64,000 nt of DNA from Leptolyngbya sp. NIES-3755 (GTDB taxonomy: Bacteria > Cyanobacteriota > Cyanobacteriia > Leptolyngbyales > Leptolyngbyaceae). Below the pieces are notes generated by a model. The model was not told where the DNA came from. It did not search any database and worked only from the letters and a program-made list of their open reading frames with translations. Shown in pieces: positions 11,070-48,490 of this stretch. The stretch covers positions 2,551,030 through 2,615,029 of the forward strand of contig AP017308.1 of NCBI GenBank assembly GCA_001548435.1, given 5' to 3'. The position numbers were made by a program, and so were the translations under genes. The stretch's first letter is position 1. Every line of letters starts with the position of its first letter.

Positions 11070-11500
11070 GTTATTCCGGAATCATCTGGCTCAACCAATA
11101 GGAAATGTAATCGATCGCTCTCCTTCTTGCGCTGTTCAAACAATTGGGCAGCGCTTCGCACTTCCGGATCTTCAAACGTCGCGACAATCCAGCGATCGAC
11201 TTCTCCCGCATTCAAAATCAATCCATCCGGCGCACCTGCGATCGCATCGAGTGACACAGGCTGATTTGCCTTTAACCATCGCGCTAACTGCATCGATCGT
11301 CGCCCCCCATCAATCACGACCCCTGGAATCTGCACTATCGATGCAATGCCTAAATTGACCGGATACAAGGCTTCGGGCATTTCTACGATCGGGATCGTGC
11401 GATTGGCGATCGACTCGACTAAATCACTCGATCGTAACGATGCAAATCGCCATTGTTCTCCCCACAAATTTTCGGGCAACGGCTGAGGAGGATTTCGCAT
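11036..11500 (-). CDS. Tab2/Atab2-like (DUF1092) C-terminal-domain protein
   Basis: About 154 residues. The order of motifs follows the C-terminal half of the Tab2/Atab2 family as I know it: LWGEQWRFASL, a central IPGVVIDGGRRSMQLARWL, then LILNAGEVDRWIVA and a terminal RLHFLLVEPDD...GFWLLR. Tab2/Atab2 proteins promote translation of photosystem I mRNA in chloroplasts, and cyanobacteria have full-length homologues of about 290 residues. Only the C-terminal half is present here, so this is either a short paralogue or a remnant. ATG 11500 is preferred to an upstream TTG at 11512. No strong Shine-Dalgarno. Confidence 0.55.
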   Translation of the reverse strand: MRNPPQPLPENLWGEQWRFASLRSSDLVESIANRTIPIVEMPEALYPVNLGIASIVQIPGVVIDGGRRSMQLARWLKANQPVSLDAIAGAPDGLILNAGEVDRWIVATFEDPEVRSAAQLFEQRKKESDRLHFLLVEPDDSGITYTGFWLLRKV

Positions 11501-11759
11501 AAATCGACACAATGCAGAACGAACTCTATTTTATGAGATCTGGAGTCAGTGACATTGCGGAATTGGCGATCGCGAAATCAATCCATTCTCGAAATCAGTA
11601 CAAGTGCTTTTTCTCTACTTGATGATTTCCATACGAACGATCGTAAGTTTTTTACGTTAATTCCGTTTTTTGACCGGGCATTCTGGGAGAGAACAATCAA
11701 TCCGTAGCTGAAATACGTAAGTACTCTAGCACTGTGCTTAGCCCCGAAGGAGATAGACG

Positions 11760-12410
11760 ATGGCGTTACAAGGAACGGAAGCTCAGGCAAAAACCCGCTT
11801 TTTGCTGGCATTGTGGGATGTGAGCGATCGACAATCTGAAATCAAGAAAAGCAATCTATTCAAACAGTTGACGCGCACCAAAGAAAAACAATCTGACTAT
11901 AAGCCGATCTATCAGGCATTGATTGAGGCAAAAGCGATCGAGGATGTCAGCAGTTTCCTCAAGTTGACGGTGATCGGTCAACAACTCTTATCCGAAGGCT
12001 TGAAATCAGCAGAGTTTAAGTTTGACGATCGTGCGACCAGTGCAACAACAGCCAATCCTTTACTGAGATGGATTCGCCAGAACTGCTTGGCGAGTGCGCC
12101 TGTGATGAATGGCAATGGAAAGAAAAGCTCGATCGCATCCTACGAAGAATTTAAGCCTGTGGCGTTGGAAGTGTTCGATCGATTGAATCGCGACTATAAC
12201 CTCGATAACTTAGTGCCGATTTATCGGATTCGGCGGGAAATTGGGGAACGAGTTGAGCGATCGAGCTTTAACGAATGGATGCTGGATTTACAAGCAAATG
12301 AAGTTTTTCAGCTAATTGGTGGAGAAATGCCGAGTTTAACTCTTGACAAAGCCGAGGACTCAATTAGCACTCCGCTCGGTGGCGATCGATTTTACGCAAA
12401 ACGTCTGTAA
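11760..12410 (+). CDS. Putative winged-helix protein, first gene of a nuclease cassette
   Basis: 216 residues, not recognised. AAGGAG stands 7 nt before the ATG. The N-terminal 75 residues (TRFLLALWDV...LFKQLTRTKEK...YQALIEAKAIEDV...LTVIGQQLLSEGL) read as a winged-helix-like regulatory or adaptor domain. A second helical domain spans about residues 100-180 (FKPVALEVFDRLNRDYNLDNLVPIYRIRREIGERV) and the end, GGDRFYAKRL, resembles the end of the nuclease encoded two genes downstream. It lies 46 nt before the ATPase gene on the same strand, so the three genes appear to form one operon. The role is unknown; a DNA-binding or specificity subunit is an inference from context. Confidence 0.6.
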   Translation: MALQGTEAQAKTRFLLALWDVSDRQSEIKKSNLFKQLTRTKEKQSDYKPIYQALIEAKAIEDVSSFLKLTVIGQQLLSEGLKSAEFKFDDRATSATTANPLLRWIRQNCLASAPVMNGNGKKSSIASYEEFKPVALEVFDRLNRDYNLDNLVPIYRIRREIGERVERSSFNEWMLDLQANEVFQLIGGEMPSLTLDKAEDSISTPLGGDRFYAKRL

Positions 12411-13987
12411 CCACGAATCTTCCTCTTAACTTTTGTACTATTGTTGACATACAACCATGAGCAGTTCAGTTTCCTCTTCTATTCAAGAAGTAAATGATGC
12501 ACTTCTGAGCCACAACCCTTTTGCTCAACCTCCTTTTCTGAAGGCGCAGCACGTCTGGGAAAAAGGATTTCCTGATGTCAAATCTTTAAATGCTCATGCG
12601 TCAAACGTAGTTTTTCAAGCTTTAGAGCAGATTCGACAGGGGCAGTACTCATCGACTTCCATTCTGATTACGGCTCAAAACGGTACGGGAAAAACTCATG
12701 TTATTAGCCGAATTCGACATCAACTTCAGTCTCAGGGTGGCGCACTTTTTGTTTATACCGAAGCGTTTGACGACTTGAACAATGTTCGGCACTCATTCCA
12801 GCAATTGCTTGCAGACAGCTTAAGCAAGACTGGGAGCCAAGGAGTGACACAATGGCAGGAACTTGCAACTGAAATGGCTAATCAAGCGCTGAGAGGCGTT
12901 AATTCAGATGCAAAAACGATCATTCCGAAAACACTATTGAATCAATTTGAGAAAAAGGGTGAAGAGCCATGCGGCGAAGAGAAGGTCAGAAGGTGGATCA
13001 GCCAACTTTCTAAGGCATTCTGTAGAGCTAGACCTGTCAAAGATCCAGATGTTGTACAAGCGATTTTCTGGACACTTTGCCCTGATCAAGCCTCCTATGC
13101 TACTAATTGGCTGGGTGGAAAGGAACTCGCTCAGTTCAAAGCAAACGAATTGAGACTACCAGCACAGCGTCAATCTTTTGATGCCACTCTTCAAATTTTG
13201 GAACTCATCAGCTACTACAACGAACTGGTCATTTGCTTCGACAATCTTGATTTAGACCAATTCAGTGATTCGGGACTGCATAAATCTCAAGTTGTTGTAG
13301 GGTTTGTGAAGGAGTTGTTCGAGAACATTCATCGAGGTGTCATTCTAACAGTCATGATGCCCGGTACTTGGACTGAGCGGGTAAAACAGCTCCCAGCAGG
13401 AGTTTGGACAAGAGTAAGAGCGCAGGGCGAACCGCTGAATTTGAAGTACATGAATGGCGATTCGATTGTCGAGCTAGTCTCGCTATACATGGATGCCTTT
13501 TACGCTGGCAAAAATCTGACCCCTCCTTACCCAACATATCCTTTTGAGGAAGCTCAACTTAAACAACTTGGTAGAGAAGGGCTAACAATTCGCCAAGTTC
13601 TTTCTTGGTGTCACGATCACTGCTCTCCTCAAAAGCCTGGCGGTGATCCTGTTGAAGTTGAGCCTCCAAAACTTCCTGACCCTGTTGAACTGGCATTTAT
13701 TAGTGAGTTGGATGCAAACATCAAGAATCGACTAGATGATAACTACTTCTTAGCTGAAGCAATTCTGTTTGGATTTCAATCGATCGTTGGGCAAGAAATT
13801 GACGGTACAACGATTACAGAGGTTACAACAGGAGTCGATAAGAAAGGGAAGAAAGATCCTTATCTCAATTTCAAAGTTCTGTGTGAGGATGATGAGTACT
13901 GGCACAGTATCGGAGTTGCTGTCTTACAGTATGATGGCGGACAGGTGTTAGGAGCGGGTTTTAGGAGGCTCCGAGATTTAGACGGCA

Positions 13988-14014
13988 AATTTGAAAGGGA
14001 GCGTGTCACCTTCT
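13988..14014. repeat. Left target duplication and left terminal inverted repeat of the IS
   Basis: 13988-13996 is AATTTGAAA, the left copy of the target duplication. 13997-14014 is the 18-bp left terminal repeat. The ATPase frame reads through the repeat and stops at 14014-14016. Confidence 0.92.
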
Positions 14015-14064
14015 GAGGAGAAAAATGAGAATAAAGGAAACCGATTCCTGAAGAGGTTCCCGCG

Positions 14065-14274
14065 ATGACTCCTGAAGACCAACAAGCGCTGAATGCCCAT
14101 GTTCAAGCGATTGCAAAAATCTTGTACAACGATGCTGACAAAAGCCAGATAACGAATTTGGCAGAAATCGAAGCGATGGTGCGAACTCAAGTGCAACAGC
14201 ACGTCACACCAGGATTAGGGAGTTTTTTATCACAGCAGTTACCGCCACAACTGAAGGCTACCCGCGACGGTTGA
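14065..14274 (+). CDS. Transposase, N-terminal reading frame
   Basis: 69 residues (MTPEDQQALNAHVQAIAKIL...), helical, matching the N-terminal region usual for ISKra4-type transposases. GAGG precedes the ATG. It ends at a TGA inside the start of the second frame. A slippery heptamer at 14223-14229 would move ribosomes into the -1 frame and give a fused 366-residue transposase. Alone it probably lacks catalytic function. Confidence 0.75.
   Translation: MTPEDQQALNAHVQAIAKILYNDADKSQITNLAEIEAMVRTQVQQHVTPGLGSFLSQQLPPQLKATRDG
14223..14229 (+). promoter_or_regulatory. Candidate -1 ribosomal frameshift site
   Basis: The heptamer T TTT TTA is in the correct register for the first transposase frame (codons TTT at 14224 and TTA at 14227). 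Slippage by one base places ribosomes in the frame of the second open frame, which is open from before this point to 15164. This is the classical X XXY YYZ form. Only a short possible stem (CAGTT/AACTG) lies downstream, so efficiency cannot be judged. Confidence 0.5.
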
Positions 14275-15164
14275 AAAGTATCTTAGGAGAACTGCAATTG
14301 ACGAGTGAACAAGCGACACGATTAGGGGTATCTGCGAGAAGCCAAATGAGTCCTTACTTGGAAGCGTGCTGTTTGAGAGCGAGTGCAACGGTTTCCTATG
14401 CCCGCGCAGAACGAGACATCGCGGTGTATACAGGAATGCGCGTCAGCGCCAAAACGCAACAACGATTAGTCCAGCGACAACCGTGGGAAGAACTTGAACC
14501 CGAAGCGCCAGAGCCGATTCTGGAAATCAGTATTGATGGCGGCAATGTGAAGTTAACCAGTGGCACTCAAGACGAACCGGACTGGCGACAGTACAAAGCC
14601 GTTCGCATCAATGGCAAGGGAGAAAGTCGAGCTTGGTTTCAGGACAATGAGGCATTGGTCGCAACAGTGAGCGCGCGTCCGATGGCAGAGGTCGTTGTCT
14701 GTCTGGGCGATGGACACGACGGCATCTGGAACTTGCATCAGCAGATCGTCGCGTTGAGCGAGCAACGGATTGAGATTCTCGATTGGTATCATCTCAAGGA
14801 GAACTTGTTCAAGTTATCGAGCGACGAAATCGACCGAGAACAGATAGAAGCTCAGTTATGGAAAGGAGATGTGAGCGCTGCTCTAGCCCAATTAGCGGCG
14901 TGTCCCTCCGATGAGGCAGAGCGGTTTTGCAACTATCTGCTGAAGCATCAACATCGGATTGTGAACTACGACTACTACGCGGCTGAGGAGCTATGTTCGA
15001 TTGGGTCAGGAGCCGTGGAATCGTTGGTCAAACAAATTGATCAACGGTTGCAGATTGTTGGAGGTCGGTGGAAAGCGGAGCATATTCCGAAAGTGCTGGC
15101 ACAACGCTGTGCTTATCTCAATGAGCAACTGAATCCCACGACATCTATTCTCTCAAGAAGGTGA
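14271..15164 (+). CDS. Transposase, catalytic reading frame (ISKra4-like)
   Basis: 297 residues from a TTG at 14271, but the frame is open upstream and is more likely entered by -1 frameshifting near 14229. The sequence carries the acidic residues of a DDE/RNase H-type core: ISIDGGNVKL (first Asp), EILDWYHLKENLF (second Asp) and a late Glu in GSGAVESLVKQIDQR. This pattern, with DWYH, is characteristic of ISKra4-type transposases. The stop lies in the right terminal repeat. Confidence 0.85.
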   Translation: MKSILGELQLTSEQATRLGVSARSQMSPYLEACCLRASATVSYARAERDIAVYTGMRVSAKTQQRLVQRQPWEELEPEAPEPILEISIDGGNVKLTSGTQDEPDWRQYKAVRINGKGESRAWFQDNEALVATVSARPMAEVVVCLGDGHDGIWNLHQQIVALSEQRIEILDWYHLKENLFKLSSDEIDREQIEAQLWKGDVSAALAQLAACPSDEAERFCNYLLKHQHRIVNYDYYAAEELCSIGSGAVESLVKQIDQRLQIVGGRWKAEHIPKVLAQRCAYLNEQLNPTTSILSRR

Positions 15165-15182
15165 CACGCTCCCAATTTGAAA
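15156..15182. repeat. Right terminal inverted repeat and right target duplication of the IS
   Basis: 15156-15173 is the exact complement of the left terminal repeat, and 15174-15182 is the second copy of AATTTGAAA. The transposase stop codon (15162-15164) lies inside the repeat. Confidence 0.92.
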
Positions 15183-15554
15183 TCACCCGTGGTTGTCTCG
15201 TGCGCTCCAAAGATAAGCTGCTCAACTCTCATTTCAGAAAAACTCATCTTGAACCTTTGATTGAGGAAGGAGGTGAATTTGTCGAACTGATAGAACAACA
15301 AATTAAACCTCTTGTCGCCATTCGCTCTGTTTATCAAAAACGTGAATCTGAGTACCGTGTAACCGAGGAACAAGTTTCGCAGTTCATTCGCGAAAAGGGC
15401 GATCGATATTGGCTTGGAGTTCACAATCCACTTCTGAAGGAGATCCTAAGTGAGCCATCTTATGAAGTTCCTGATGATATCGAAACTGAGCCAGAGTGTT
15501 CAGAGGAGTTTGATGCTGATGTCTCGACAACAGACGATCTAGAAGAGTTGGTTC

Positions 15555-17012
15555 ATGCTTGAGATGGTTTTATTGGACAAGGCTTTGTGCCTGCCTGCTG
15601 CTGATATTGCGGCTTTACTGAGTGGGAAACTGATTGCTGCACTCCCTAGAGTGCCTGTACAAAAAGGATGGACATTTGCGCTTTATCCGTACATTGAGGC
15701 AACACGACAACAGGAGAATTCTCATCGCTCAAATTGTACAGTCTCGACAAGTACAGCGATCGCGCAAGCATCGACAATTGAAGCATGGGCAACCTGTGAG
15801 CAATGTGTGATGCTGCATAGCTTAGAGCAGGTAGAAGCCTTGTCTCGTTCAACTATTTGGCAGAGAGAAGCCCTGAAATTAGCTCTAGAACAAAGGCAAC
15901 ATCTGTTTTTAGCTTTCTTGCGTGTTCATCGAACTCCTGAATTGATCAAGGTGAACTGCAAAAGTTTGAACGCTGATAAGTTCGGAAAATTCGTTGGATT
16001 ATCGAGCTTAGATGAGCGATTTAACCAACCAGAAAAGATAACGCAGAAACTACCTGTTTTGAGCGATCGCACTTTCGCCCAGCGCAGACAAAAACTCGAA
16101 AACCTAGAGCCTCCAGATCATCCAGAACTAGAAGAATTGCACGACACGATCGCTCAACTCGCCAACCCAGCAGCAGTCCATCTCAAACAAGATTTGAAAT
16201 ACTTTCTGGGTTGGGCGGAAACTGCGATCGTCGATCGACCCCAACCAAAATGGATTCAGGAAATTGCTAAAGCAGGCAACTCCAGTGATGGTGACTACTT
16301 TGAAAAGCTTGTTCGGAAAAGCTTCATCGAATTAGGCTTCACGAACTCACAAAACAACCCCAAAATGAGCCTAGACCCAGAAGCAACTGGAGGAGCAGGA
16401 GGAATTGATTTTTTCTGCGATGCACCTTATCGAATCATTGGCGAGTGCAAAGCAAGTAAAAGCCAAAAAGTAGCCGACCACAAAGACGGAGCGCCCGCAC
16501 AGTTGCTCAAATTTGGAGGATCTTACCTGAAACCCGAAGAATTTGCAGATTCCATCAGAATCATCATGGCTCCGGGGGAAATGACAGACTACGCAAAACA
16601 AACCGCGATCGGACATCAGATGAACGTACTGCAACCAGAAACACTCCAACGTTTAGTGGAACTCAAGCAAGCCTACCCTGGAGCAATCAACCTTTGGGAG
16701 CTTAAATCTTGCCTGTCTCAATTGCCTTTTAGTCAAGCCGCAGATGACAAACTAAATCAACACCTCGATCGCATTCAGCAAGAAATTCAAGTGCGATCGC
16801 GAATTGTTGAAGTTCTTCAATCCAGAGCACCCAAAGAACTAGGAATCGATTTCATCTGGGGAACTTACGAAGCACTCAATCCTCCTCGTTCACTGACTCA
16901 AGCAGAACTGAAAGATATTTTAATTGAACTGTCTTCTCCCTTGACCGGATTCATTGGGCGCAAAGACAGCGATCGCTTCTACTTTCTCCGTCCGCTCAAT
17001 CTCGAATCCTAA
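15555..17012 (+). CDS. PD-(D/E)XK nuclease-domain protein, last gene of the cassette
   Basis: 485 residues. The N-terminal 150 residues are helical and unrecognised. From about residue 230 a restriction-endonuclease-like core is readable: DGDYFEKLVRKSFIELGF (first acidic helix), GGAGGIDFF (catalytic Asp) and RIIGECKASK (the ExK half). The C-terminal 80 residues (RSRIVEVLQSRAP...AELKDILIEL...DRFYFLRPL) look like a winged helix. The start overlaps the ATPase stop by 8 nt, a sign of translational coupling. With an ATPase and a small putative DNA-binding protein upstream, a role in defence against foreign DNA is plausible, but no known system is recognised. Confidence 0.7.
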   Translation: MLEMVLLDKALCLPAADIAALLSGKLIAALPRVPVQKGWTFALYPYIEATRQQENSHRSNCTVSTSTAIAQASTIEAWATCEQCVMLHSLEQVEALSRSTIWQREALKLALEQRQHLFLAFLRVHRTPELIKVNCKSLNADKFGKFVGLSSLDERFNQPEKITQKLPVLSDRTFAQRRQKLENLEPPDHPELEELHDTIAQLANPAAVHLKQDLKYFLGWAETAIVDRPQPKWIQEIAKAGNSSDGDYFEKLVRKSFIELGFTNSQNNPKMSLDPEATGGAGGIDFFCDAPYRIIGECKASKSQKVADHKDGAPAQLLKFGGSYLKPEEFADSIRIIMAPGEMTDYAKQTAIGHQMNVLQPETLQRLVELKQAYPGAINLWELKSCLSQLPFSQAADDKLNQHLDRIQQEIQVRSRIVEVLQSRAPKELGIDFIWGTYEALNPPRSLTQAELKDILIELSSPLTGFIGRKDSDRFYFLRPLNLES

Positions 17013-17054
17013 TTCCGCTGCGATAAGCTAGTCATACACATACGATCCCAGACT

Positions 17055-17264
17055 ATGCCAAATCCATCGCCCACGCAACGCACTGTACTACTCTACCCTG
17101 ACGAAAATGGCTACGTCATTGCAGAAGTTCCAAGCCTGCCGGGATGTGTCAGCCAAGGAGAAACCCGCGACGAAGCACTTCAAAATATTCAAGAAGCGAT
17201 CGCTCTTCACATTGAAGTTCTACAAGAGCGTGGGCAACCTGTTCCAGACGATCGGGTTGAATAA
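17055..17264 (+). CDS. HicB-family antitoxin (orphan)
   Basis: 69 residues of the HicB partial RNase H-like fold: YPDENGYVIAEVPSLPGCVSQGETRDEALQNIQEAI. This stretch is diagnostic. No HicA toxin (a small dsRNA-binding-like protein with a catalytic His) is readable immediately upstream or downstream. A twelve-codon frame from a GTG at 17281 is too short to be one. Free-standing HicB-like proteins are frequent in cyanobacteria, so this may be a regulator rather than a broken module. Confidence 0.85.
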   Translation: MPNPSPTQRTVLLYPDENGYVIAEVPSLPGCVSQGETRDEALQNIQEAIALHIEVLQERGQPVPDDRVE

Positions 17265-46436: not shown

Positions 46437-46865
46437 CTAAAATAGGATATGGAAGCTCAGTTTTTTCGTTACCTAGTAGAAACCGAGAAAACCGACATGT
46501 TTTCCCAAGATGAGCACCCGCGTAACAAGAGTCCTACTCAGTGTAAAAATACACAGATGTAAATTGAAATTTGTTTCCGCATTTTCACCGTGGGATTACA
46601 TTCATACCTGTGAATATAAAGCGTTTATAAATTAGCAAGCACCAGAACGTTGCGTTAAGCCACTTAGAAGAAGTGGTAACTTTATGTATCTAGGACGATC
46701 AAATCTGCATATTTACAGGTTTCAGTTCAGTAATTTCATCCGACACGCGAAATCTTGTAGAGCAAAATCGCGCCTCTACCATTGATGGGTAAATGCAAAC
46801 TTTGTCACACTAATTTTGTCGATCGAATCTGATCGACATCCGTATCGTCTGGAAAACTCAGCAAT
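46437..46865. other. Intergenic region without a gene
   Basis: 429 bp, AT-richer than its neighbours. No coding frame of interest and no tRNA. At 46654-46680 a 10-bp imperfect stem with a two-base bulge is seen (GTTA..CCACTT / AAGTGGTAAC). The upstream part is presumably the promoter of the exopolysaccharide pair on the minus strand. Confidence 0.5.
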
Positions 46866-47792
46866 CTAGGGCGTGCTCAAATTCGCGATCGCACGATTCA
46901 CCCATTCAGATAGCGCCGCTTGCTCTTCCGTTGAAATTCCAGTCATCATTGTTTGAGCCAGCGACATCGCCACCGGAGGCAAAGTCGTCTTCAATTCTTC
47001 TCCAGCTTCCGTCAGCCAAATTCGCCAAATCCGTCGGTCTTGCGTATCCCGCTCTCGACGAATTAACCCTCGATCGCACATGCGATCGAGCACTCCAGTC
47101 AGCGTTCCACCGACCTGCTGAAGCTTTTCGCCAATTCCAGAAGTTGCTTGTCCGTCTTCTTGCCAGAGACAGCACAAAACCACCCAGTGAAACGGCGTAA
47201 GTTCAAACGGATCGAGCCGTTCCTGAAATCGACGGGTTCCAAGTTGGGCAATGATTTTGATGCGGTAGCCCAAATTGTGAGGCGCAAGAAGCGACTGCCA
47301 CCCCTCTGGAGGACTCACTGGAGTTGTATTCGCGAAATTTGCAATAATGCGATCGACAATATCCGAAAATTGTTCGCGCTCTGCATACGAGATCCCCTGT
47401 AGCGCTGCTTCCCGAACTTCAACTGCAATCGGGGGCAAAATGTCTTCAAGTTGCCGCCCTGCATCGGTAAGCCAGATCCGCCAAATTCGTCGGTCTTGGG
47501 TATCTCTTTCGCGACGAATCAAACCGCGATCGCACATTCGATCTAAGACTCCGGTTAAAGTGCCGCCAACCTGTTGTAATCGATCGCCAATACTCGAAGT
47601 TGCTTGACCATCTTCTTGCCACAAGCAGCAGAGAACGACCCAATGAAAAGGGGTTAATCGATAGGGGTCAAGGCGTTCCTGAAATCTACGACCAAGGAGT
47701 TGGGAAAGGAGTTTAATGCGATATCCGATACCGTGGGGGGCGAGTAATCGGTTGAGGTTCGCTGGGATTGGTTCAGTTTGGGAAGAGAGCAT
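46866..47792 (-). CDS. Tandem double-MarR regulator (two MarR domains in one chain)
   Basis: 308 residues made of two repeats of about 150. Each has a MarR winged helix: repeat one near residues 20-140 and repeat two near 170-300. Both contain LTPFHWVVLCCLWQEDGQAT, then VGGTLTGVLDRMCDRGLIRR and RDTQDRRIWRIWLT, nearly identical in protein but differing in codons. MarR proteins normally dimerise; a covalent tandem would form a dimer within one chain and allow its halves to diverge. No Shine-Dalgarno is clear at the start. The target is unknown. Confidence 0.85.
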   Translation of the reverse strand: MLSSQTEPIPANLNRLLAPHGIGYRIKLLSQLLGRRFQERLDPYRLTPFHWVVLCCLWQEDGQATSSIGDRLQQVGGTLTGVLDRMCDRGLIRRERDTQDRRIWRIWLTDAGRQLEDILPPIAVEVREAALQGISYAEREQFSDIVDRIIANFANTTPVSPPEGWQSLLAPHNLGYRIKIIAQLGTRRFQERLDPFELTPFHWVVLCCLWQEDGQATSGIGEKLQQVGGTLTGVLDRMCDRGLIRRERDTQDRRIWRIWLTEAGEELKTTLPPVAMSLAQTMMTGISTEEQAALSEWVNRAIANLSTP

Positions 47793-48001
47793 CTACGTTA
47801 CGAAAAGAGCGTTTAACAGAATCAGATCAAGAAGCTCGGAGCAGGTAGACCGTGGACAAAAACACGAGGTAGAAGAATTCTAGCTTAAAGTAATTTTTCT
47901 AAAACGAAATTTTGTGGATTTTCACCTTCATCCGTATCGTAAGTGATGGTTGCAGCACCGAATTGCACCTTCTTACAATTTCTTACGAAGTTAATTTAGA
48001 T

Positions 48002-48490
48002 TCACAATAGAAATTTGGGGGGAGTTAACCAAAAAAGTTGGCAGTTCGCAAGTATTGTTCCGCCGTCTGGAACTTCAATGCCAATCGCGCCCGCTTTTTT
48101 GAGAATAATACGATCGCGCACTGATCCCCAAATGAGTAGTTCTGTCCAATTACTTAAACCAGGCTCATGTCCAACTAACGCGAGGGTTTTCTCTGGATTG
48201 CGCCACGACTCAAGCCAGGATAACCAAGTTTGAATATCTCCACTCGGTGCAAGATAGCCCTCGACTTTCAAATCATCAGTCAAGTGAGCCGCTTCGAGAA
48301 TTTCAGCCGTTTGTTTGGCACGAACAAGTGGACTCGTCAGAATGAGATCAAACTTCAATCCCAACTCCCGAAGCCGTTTTGCCACCTGTTCGGTCTTGCG
48401 CTTACCTTCTGAAGTTAGAGGGCGCTCGTCGTCGTTGGGATAGTCGCCGTGTTGTCCTGCGAGTCCATGTCGAATCATGTAGAGCTTCAT
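48002..48490 (-). CDS. sixA: Phosphohistidine phosphatase SixA
   Basis: 162 residues. Histidine phosphatase motif LYMIRHGLAG with the nucleophile His and RHG, a second Arg/His in SPLVRAKQTAEIL, and VGHEPGLSNW with the second catalytic His. It removes phosphate from phosphohistidine, for example on the phosphotransfer domain of a sensor kinase. Confidence 0.92.
   Translation of the reverse strand: MKLYMIRHGLAGQHGDYPNDDERPLTSEGKRKTEQVAKRLRELGLKFDLILTSPLVRAKQTAEILEAAHLTDDLKVEGYLAPSGDIQTWLSWLESWRNPEKTLALVGHEPGLSNWTELLIWGSVRDRIILKKAGAIGIEVPDGGTILANCQLFWLTPPKFLL

Follow-up and report, generated by a model that had tools for sequence, protein, structure and literature searches.

Sequence evidence for a single fusion and for concerted evolution of the winged-helix cores in a double MarR protein of Leptolyngbya and related cyanobacteria

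MarR proteins are regarded as homodimers, in which a single gene encodes both halves and these are unable to evolve apart. In MarR structures, the end helices form the dimer interface and a part of the ligand pocket. EmrR/MprA, OhrR and SlyA are single-domain repressors of this fold, and the EmrR/MprA gene adjoins the EmrAB pump. Another design is that of SarS (SarH1), which regulates virulence in the pathogen Staphylococcus aureus. From the 1p4x alignments described below, we take it to be a natural single chain with two winged-helix domains in the MarR/SarA superfamily; SarU and SarY are two-domain relatives of it. Here, we describe a cyanobacterial MarR protein that also carries two domains in one chain. 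In the largely open part of the literature on tandem, fused or double MarR proteins, on conversion in such proteins, on this protein group in Leptolyngbya or Anabaena and on SarS (including PMC10112191, PMC4971617, PMC4379015, PMC4537247 and PMC8510525; subscription papers fell mostly outside its scope), we recognised no description of this double protein. The matched passages of these five papers do not describe SarS as having two domains.

We analysed a 64,000-nucleotide stretch of Leptolyngbya sp. NIES-3755 DNA, called the window here. The double MarR gene occupies 46866..47792 on the minus strand, where a sequence-only reading of the window had correctly placed a 308-residue chain with two MarR domains. 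It starts with ATG, and the plus strand across the same interval is interrupted by stops. The Pfam MarR model (PF01047) matched the whole protein in two stretches with 100.8 bits (cut-off 24.6), and the SarA/Rot model (PF22381) scored 45.2 bits (cut-off 27). The protein missed the NCBIfam equivalog cut-offs of OhrR (112.5 of 200 bits), SlyA (96.4 of 120) and MprA (46.6 of 157). Taking an approximate boundary, the N half spans residues 1-156 (47325..47792) and the C half residues 157-308, most of the linker included (46869..47324). The winged-helix cores lie at residues 33-112 (47457..47696) and 185-264 (47001..47240), all on the minus strand. The two halves share 102 identities over 157 aligned columns, and the DNA holds a repeat of 233 nt with 76% identity and a spacing of 456. 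Both peptides that the sequence-only reading had quoted as repeated almost unchanged are present in each half as exact copies. Although the cores show 90% protein identity, the same codon is used at 26 of the 67 same-residue sites (M and W left out) and dS between the cores is saturated. Thus, the internal repeat is genuine and old, with constraint acting on the protein, which agrees with the earlier view of two constrained copies and a fusion that is not recent.

We searched 115 genomes of relatives, own included, and found the same double gene as an open frame, with both halves matched, in 12 genomes besides our own. An architecture common to 13 genomes excludes a collapsed or mis-joined assembly of two neighbouring genes, which had been named as the result that would overturn the claim. 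In a class-wide sample of 388 genomes, 101 carried a homologue (E <= 1e-25) and 13 carried the double; the remaining homologues matched one half only, and this query detected no further double of the subfamily in the sample. Eight doubles belong to the genus of the window (g1, own included), two to g3, two to g5 and one to g8. All are in one family (f1), whose 42 sampled genomes divide into 13 with the double, 12 with a one-half match only and 17 with no match. Scanning 39 cyanobacterial genomes with the Pfam model (E <= 1e-9) gave 68 domain matches, and the two-domain frames were those of our genome and of G009, both of the double group. A 330-residue open frame of G281 was rejected as a double, containing a single MarR of 171 residues beside emrA. 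Eight of the 13 doubles are protein-identical to named records at loci L039-L046 and were counted once. They come from Pseudanabaenaceae cyanobacterium LEGE 13415, Leptolyngbya sp. Prado105, Cyanobacteria bacterium FACHB-63 and Phormidium tanganyikae FI6-MK23 in g1, Myxacorys almedinensis and M. californica in g3, and two Phormidesmis priestleyi in g5, the latter identical in protein to the doubles of G011 and G027. In the search of the relatives, each g1 genome gave one match at E <= 1e-10, which suggests that the double has taken the place of the single-domain gene in this genus.

The halves of the 13 doubles align gap-free over 138 positions, which we split, after viewing the alignment, into a head (1-16), a core (17-96) and a tail (97-138). 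Comparing N with C halves, the core amino-acid identity was 0.872 within genomes vs 0.824 between them, and the synonymous-codon identity was 0.61 vs 0.44. None of the 20,000 permutations of the N-C pairing reached these core values, a count that serves as a guide rather than an exact probability because related genomes are not independent. The head (0.673 within, 0.675 between) and the tail (0.342 and 0.349) showed no within-genome excess in amino acids; 11,478 to 17,100 of the 20,000 permutations reached their values. We also built trees with 27 of the 88 single-domain open frames that had the anchor for cutting (one of the 89 singles, L109, lacks it). The tree columns (30-94 for the core, the rest for the flanks) differ slightly from the permutation split, and being few they leave many forks unresolved. 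In the core protein tree, all double halves form one clade against the 27 singles (support 96/82), inside which N and C halves interleave by genus. A single clade of N halves in the core DNA tree was rejected (p-AU 0.0004).

The longest identical runs between N and C halves were 171 nt in G025 (codons 38-94), 74 nt in G005, 47 nt in G003, 42 nt in G007 and 13 nt in our gene. Over codons 57-95, the windowed identity of the two halves was 93-98% in G003 and 73-82% in our gene, despite the close kinship of the two genomes (93%). This difference is most simply explained if a conversion occurred since the two lineages parted. Taken together, the alignments and trees point to gene conversion as having repeatedly homogenised the cores in several lineages, with the two ends diverging as ordinary paralogues. 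The sequence-only reading had inferred constraint on both copies. Both halves are indeed constrained, but the near-identity of the cores needs gene conversion as well. Conversion may be restricted to the core either by selection or by the lack of homology between the diverged ends.

The trees of the ends of the gene place one fusion behind all doubles. In the flank protein tree, the N halves form one clade (94/84), nested among single-domain proteins, and the C halves form another (99/94), which stands apart. The flank DNA tree likewise separates N from C, with support of 100/99 for both. Close relatives are the single-domain cyanobacterial orthologues of Nostoc, Calothrix and others, which stand beside emrA-MFS-emrB, belong to the same subfamily and have a best identity to a half of 62-80% (89 singles). 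They share the sixA locus in some f1 genomes. Unlike the double, they have one domain, are mostly 155 residues long and are presumed homodimers.

Gene order suggests where the fusion arose. Within the same family, three genomes of genus g4 with a single-domain gene (L157, L158, L159) show HNH-DHH-sixA-marR-emrA-MFS-emrB; we take the HNH, DHH, sixA, emrA and emrB names from sequence resemblance, the family-library scan covering MarR. Two other singles have marR after sixA with no pump gene nearby (L155, L156), and one has it ahead of emrA and emrB without sixA (L160). The order HNH-DHH-sixA-double marR is found in six of the eight named double loci (L041-L046) and in the window, where the sixA-like phosphohistidine phosphatase gene lies at 48002..48490 on the minus strand. 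Most of the marR genes inspected in the family, whether single or double, have this gene as their upstream neighbour. The exceptions are L039, which ends at a contig edge after sixA, and L040, a double without a preceding sixA. At the double locus of G014 (L161), sixA is present with a different gene before it. Where fetched, the pump genes of the genomes with doubles are unlinked: emrA-MFS-emrB in the two Phormidesmis (L167, L173) and MFS-emrB in six g1 genomes (L165, L166, L169-L172). As the g4 singles sit at sixA-marR-emrA-MFS-emrB and doubles at sixA-marRmarR with the pump elsewhere, the simplest account is that marR duplicated in tandem at its own locus. Five of the 13 double genomes (G004, G005, G009, G025, G014) lack an EmrB homologue at E <= 1e-40. 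At L165 (G000:C1:348000-362000), MFS-emrB follows a gene for 649 residues and a GntR-like gene, and we saw no emrA homologue at this locus; the pump of our genome may have lost or exchanged its membrane-fusion partner.

Outside the cores, the halves have taken on different residues. At positions 6, 14, 123 and 131, the N halves have one fixed residue and the C halves another (in at least 11 of 13 in each), R111 is present in all 13 N halves and variable in C halves, and W129, absent from every N half, is found in 12 of the 13 C halves. Since the end helices, pocket-lining in MarR structures, differ between the halves, the two ligand pockets of the double chain probably differ. Within the core, residue 71 is E in all 88 singles and never E in the 26 double halves, which have A, C or S (10, 8 and 8). 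It sits in the recognition helix of the window model (residue 87, helix 79-88). The linker, as delimited, is 16 residues long in all eight members of the genus. The window gene has an in-frame GTG 16 codons ahead of its C-half anchor; the other 12 double genes have no counterpart there, and it was set aside. Helix 2 of each half carries adjacent cysteines (CC of LCCLW, at 47169-47174 and 47625-47630), which all 26 double halves and all 88 singles retain and which might conceivably act in redox chemistry or with a metal.

AlphaFold2 modelled the window protein with a pLDDT of 85.8 and a pTM of 0.84, and the diverged G014 member (67% identical) with 83.5 and 0.82, from alignments of 13 rows. A pTM so high for 308 residues suggests that the two domains hold a defined arrangement, fitting a two-domain pseudo-dimer. 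Performing single-chain comparisons with Foldseek and VIA, we recovered the MarR fold in each half: the C half on OhrR 1z91 (Z 14.9 over 136 residues) and the N half on 8xu0_B (Z 14.3 over 137). The best Foldseek match of the whole model was SarS, 1p4x (282 columns, E 1.5e-6, TM 0.45 by query). By VIA, 1p4x had a Z of 12.8 with 227 residues over both domains and ranked 30, below MarR chains that mostly match one half; Foldseek and VIA both superpose the model on SarS only loosely (rmsd 10.1 and 5.0). The sequence-only reading had called a covalent tandem an unusual design, but SarS provides a natural precedent in the same superfamily. Identity to SarS in the structural alignments is 13-14%, and 1p4x is absent among the 60 PDB sequence matches listed of 65. 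We infer that SarS and the cyanobacterial double arose independently. Our analysis adds the domain-limited concerted evolution and the origin traced from a gene beside pump genes.

We then looked for operator-like sites. A strict pattern matched in 31 of 69 single-domain loci, where an imperfect palindrome such as ATATTACGTATGCTAAGTAAT has its TTACG beginning 23-28 nt ahead of the gene. Using a matrix built on these 31 loci, we found the site before marR in eight of ten loci (L155-L160, L162, L164) with scores of 11.9 to 23.0 (shuffled means 0.7 to 3.4); the single L163 and the double L161 scored 6.6 each. The second matrix combined the 31 sites with those of the eight loci, none of them from a double gene, and was judged against shuffles that keep base content only. 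With this matrix, the double genes of both Phormidesmis have a predicted 21-nt site of the single-domain class beginning 33-34 nt before the start, scoring 23.5 and 20.1 (shuffled mean 5.1). Their unlinked emrA genes have two sites exactly 46 bp apart with scores of 15.9-18.7 (shuffled mean 6.0-6.1), a spacing that could suit two repressor molecules. The pattern of these six sites, which match it by construction, has no other exact match in either genome. The unlinked emrA of the single-domain genome G020 has one site (12.9). The double of G009 has a weak site in the usual place (11.8, 2% of shuffles as high), and those of G004 and G014 score 11.2 and 10.7 at other places, with about 2% of shuffles as high for each. 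In the genus of the window, the ancestral operator was not detected before the double gene (5.8 for our own gene, against a shuffled mean of 5.6), and no site stood out before the other g1 doubles or that of G025 (7 to 50% of shuffles as high).

Building on the sequence, the single fusion, the gene order, the concerted evolution and the conserved operator-like sites, we propose, with a probability of roughly 0.7, that the double is an EmrR-like MarR whose tandem duplicate was joined in one chain, acting as an intramolecular dimer on a near-palindromic operator, with its heads kept alike by conversion and purifying selection. The copies, duplicated in place, are joined by a linker of about 16-30 residues. 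For the oligomeric state, DNA binding, repression and ligand, we infer the following. The single chain would close on itself, the specialised end helices (alpha1, alpha5, alpha6) of the N and C halves pairing together, and its two winged-helix heads would read the two half-sites of one operator. Conversion and purifying selection keep the two heads similar, which is what an operator close to symmetric would require. Two separate single-domain chains have to find each other, a step that the fused chain is spared, and the ends of the fused chain would be free to specialise. In Phormidesmis, the double would most likely repress its own promoter and, in trans, the unlinked emrA-MFS-emrB operon, until a ligand releases it from the operator. 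The operator-like sites argue for pump control by the double in Phormidesmis only, and this cannot be the function common to all doubles, given the five genomes without an EmrB homologue.

A different assembly, in which two double chains pair into a four-headed protein bridging two operators, would account for the paired sites before emrA in both Phormidesmis genomes. An E. coli MarR cysteine adjoining the position that is C, S or A in the doubles can link dimers, which would also fit. We consider this assembly unlikely, because the Phormidesmis double-gene promoter has a single strong site, the single-chain models reach their pTM values without a partner chain and the short linkers of our genus suit pairing within the chain. 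The likeness of the cores has a competing explanation too, namely parallel selection on the protein by shared operator half-sites without DNA exchange between the halves. Our own cores, whose proteins are alike while their synonymous codons agree no more than the background (26 of 67), look as this would predict, and the variable core positions mostly agree within genomes (71 in 11 of 13, 74 and 87 in 12 each, 82 in 8). However, the within-genome excess at synonymous sites and the identical runs of up to 171 nt go against it, and the head and tail, exposed to the same genome codon use, show no such excess. The synonymous sites refute parallel selection as the only cause, and we hold it very improbable, while it may act alongside conversion.

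We give the least credit to the idea that the second half is a spare part, with one half binding DNA and ligand and the other forming a structural lid free of DNA-binding constraint. The loss from C halves of residues fixed in all N halves, such as R111, and the isolated position of the C flanks in the tree are what it would lead one to expect. Yet, in seven genome pairs, the core dN was 0.011-0.069 in N halves and 0.011-0.057 in C halves at a dS of 0.29-1.76 (one value saturated), and it is the recognition-helix region that was homogenised between the halves.

Returning to the intramolecular dimer, we tentatively suggest a broader meaning. Freed of homodimer symmetry, the halves may have become obligate unequal partners that differ in their interface and pocket helices, and recurrent conversion confined to the winged-helix segment may keep the DNA readers in step with the operator. 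If so, fusion with domain-limited conversion would be a route for a palindrome reader to change its operator without a mismatched heterodimer stage. The 13 genomes provide a natural set of cases where a single chain most likely makes up the dimer, with ends diverged and heads kept alike, and the double MarR lets the symmetry needs of a dimeric repressor be tested within a single gene. They also warn that near-identical internal repeats of a protein may be younger than the founding duplication.

We finally inspected the regulatory regions of our own genus. The first operator pattern search in our genome gave 8 matches with two mismatches, against 47 for the reversed control, and our MFS-emrB promoter scored 2.2, below the shuffled mean of 4.8. 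A degenerate TTCGTAYACTRA precedes MFS-emrB in G001, G003, G006 and G007 (TTCCTATACTAG in our genome). By matrix, G007 alone stands out (10.6; 3 of 100 shuffles as high), and the candidacy of this degenerate element as an operator is uncertain. The second contigs of our genome and G006 share a TTCGTAYACTRA match, which overlaps an ArsR-like gene at its start and which we dismissed as coincidence. At these loci (L199, L200), the ArsR-like regulator lies beside a cation-efflux-like transporter, both named by sequence resemblance. The region upstream of the double gene (47793..48001, minus strand) has a candidate -10 element, GCTAGAAT, at 47877-47884, with GCTARAAT in six of six aligned congeners. 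Further upstream, ACTTACGATACGGAT (47930..47944, minus strand) is conserved in g1, TTACGAT being invariant in the six aligned congeners, and it occurs at one place per genome in the three genomes searched with one mismatch allowed. It is an uncertain candidate for a new regulatory element of g1; comparing it with the ancestral site in reverse complement, we counted 11 agreements over 14 positions, which is suggestive only. Exact copies of the 12-mer CATCCGTATCGT flank the double gene, one at 46837-46848 (17 nt past the stop) and one at 47929-47940, inside the conserved upstream element.
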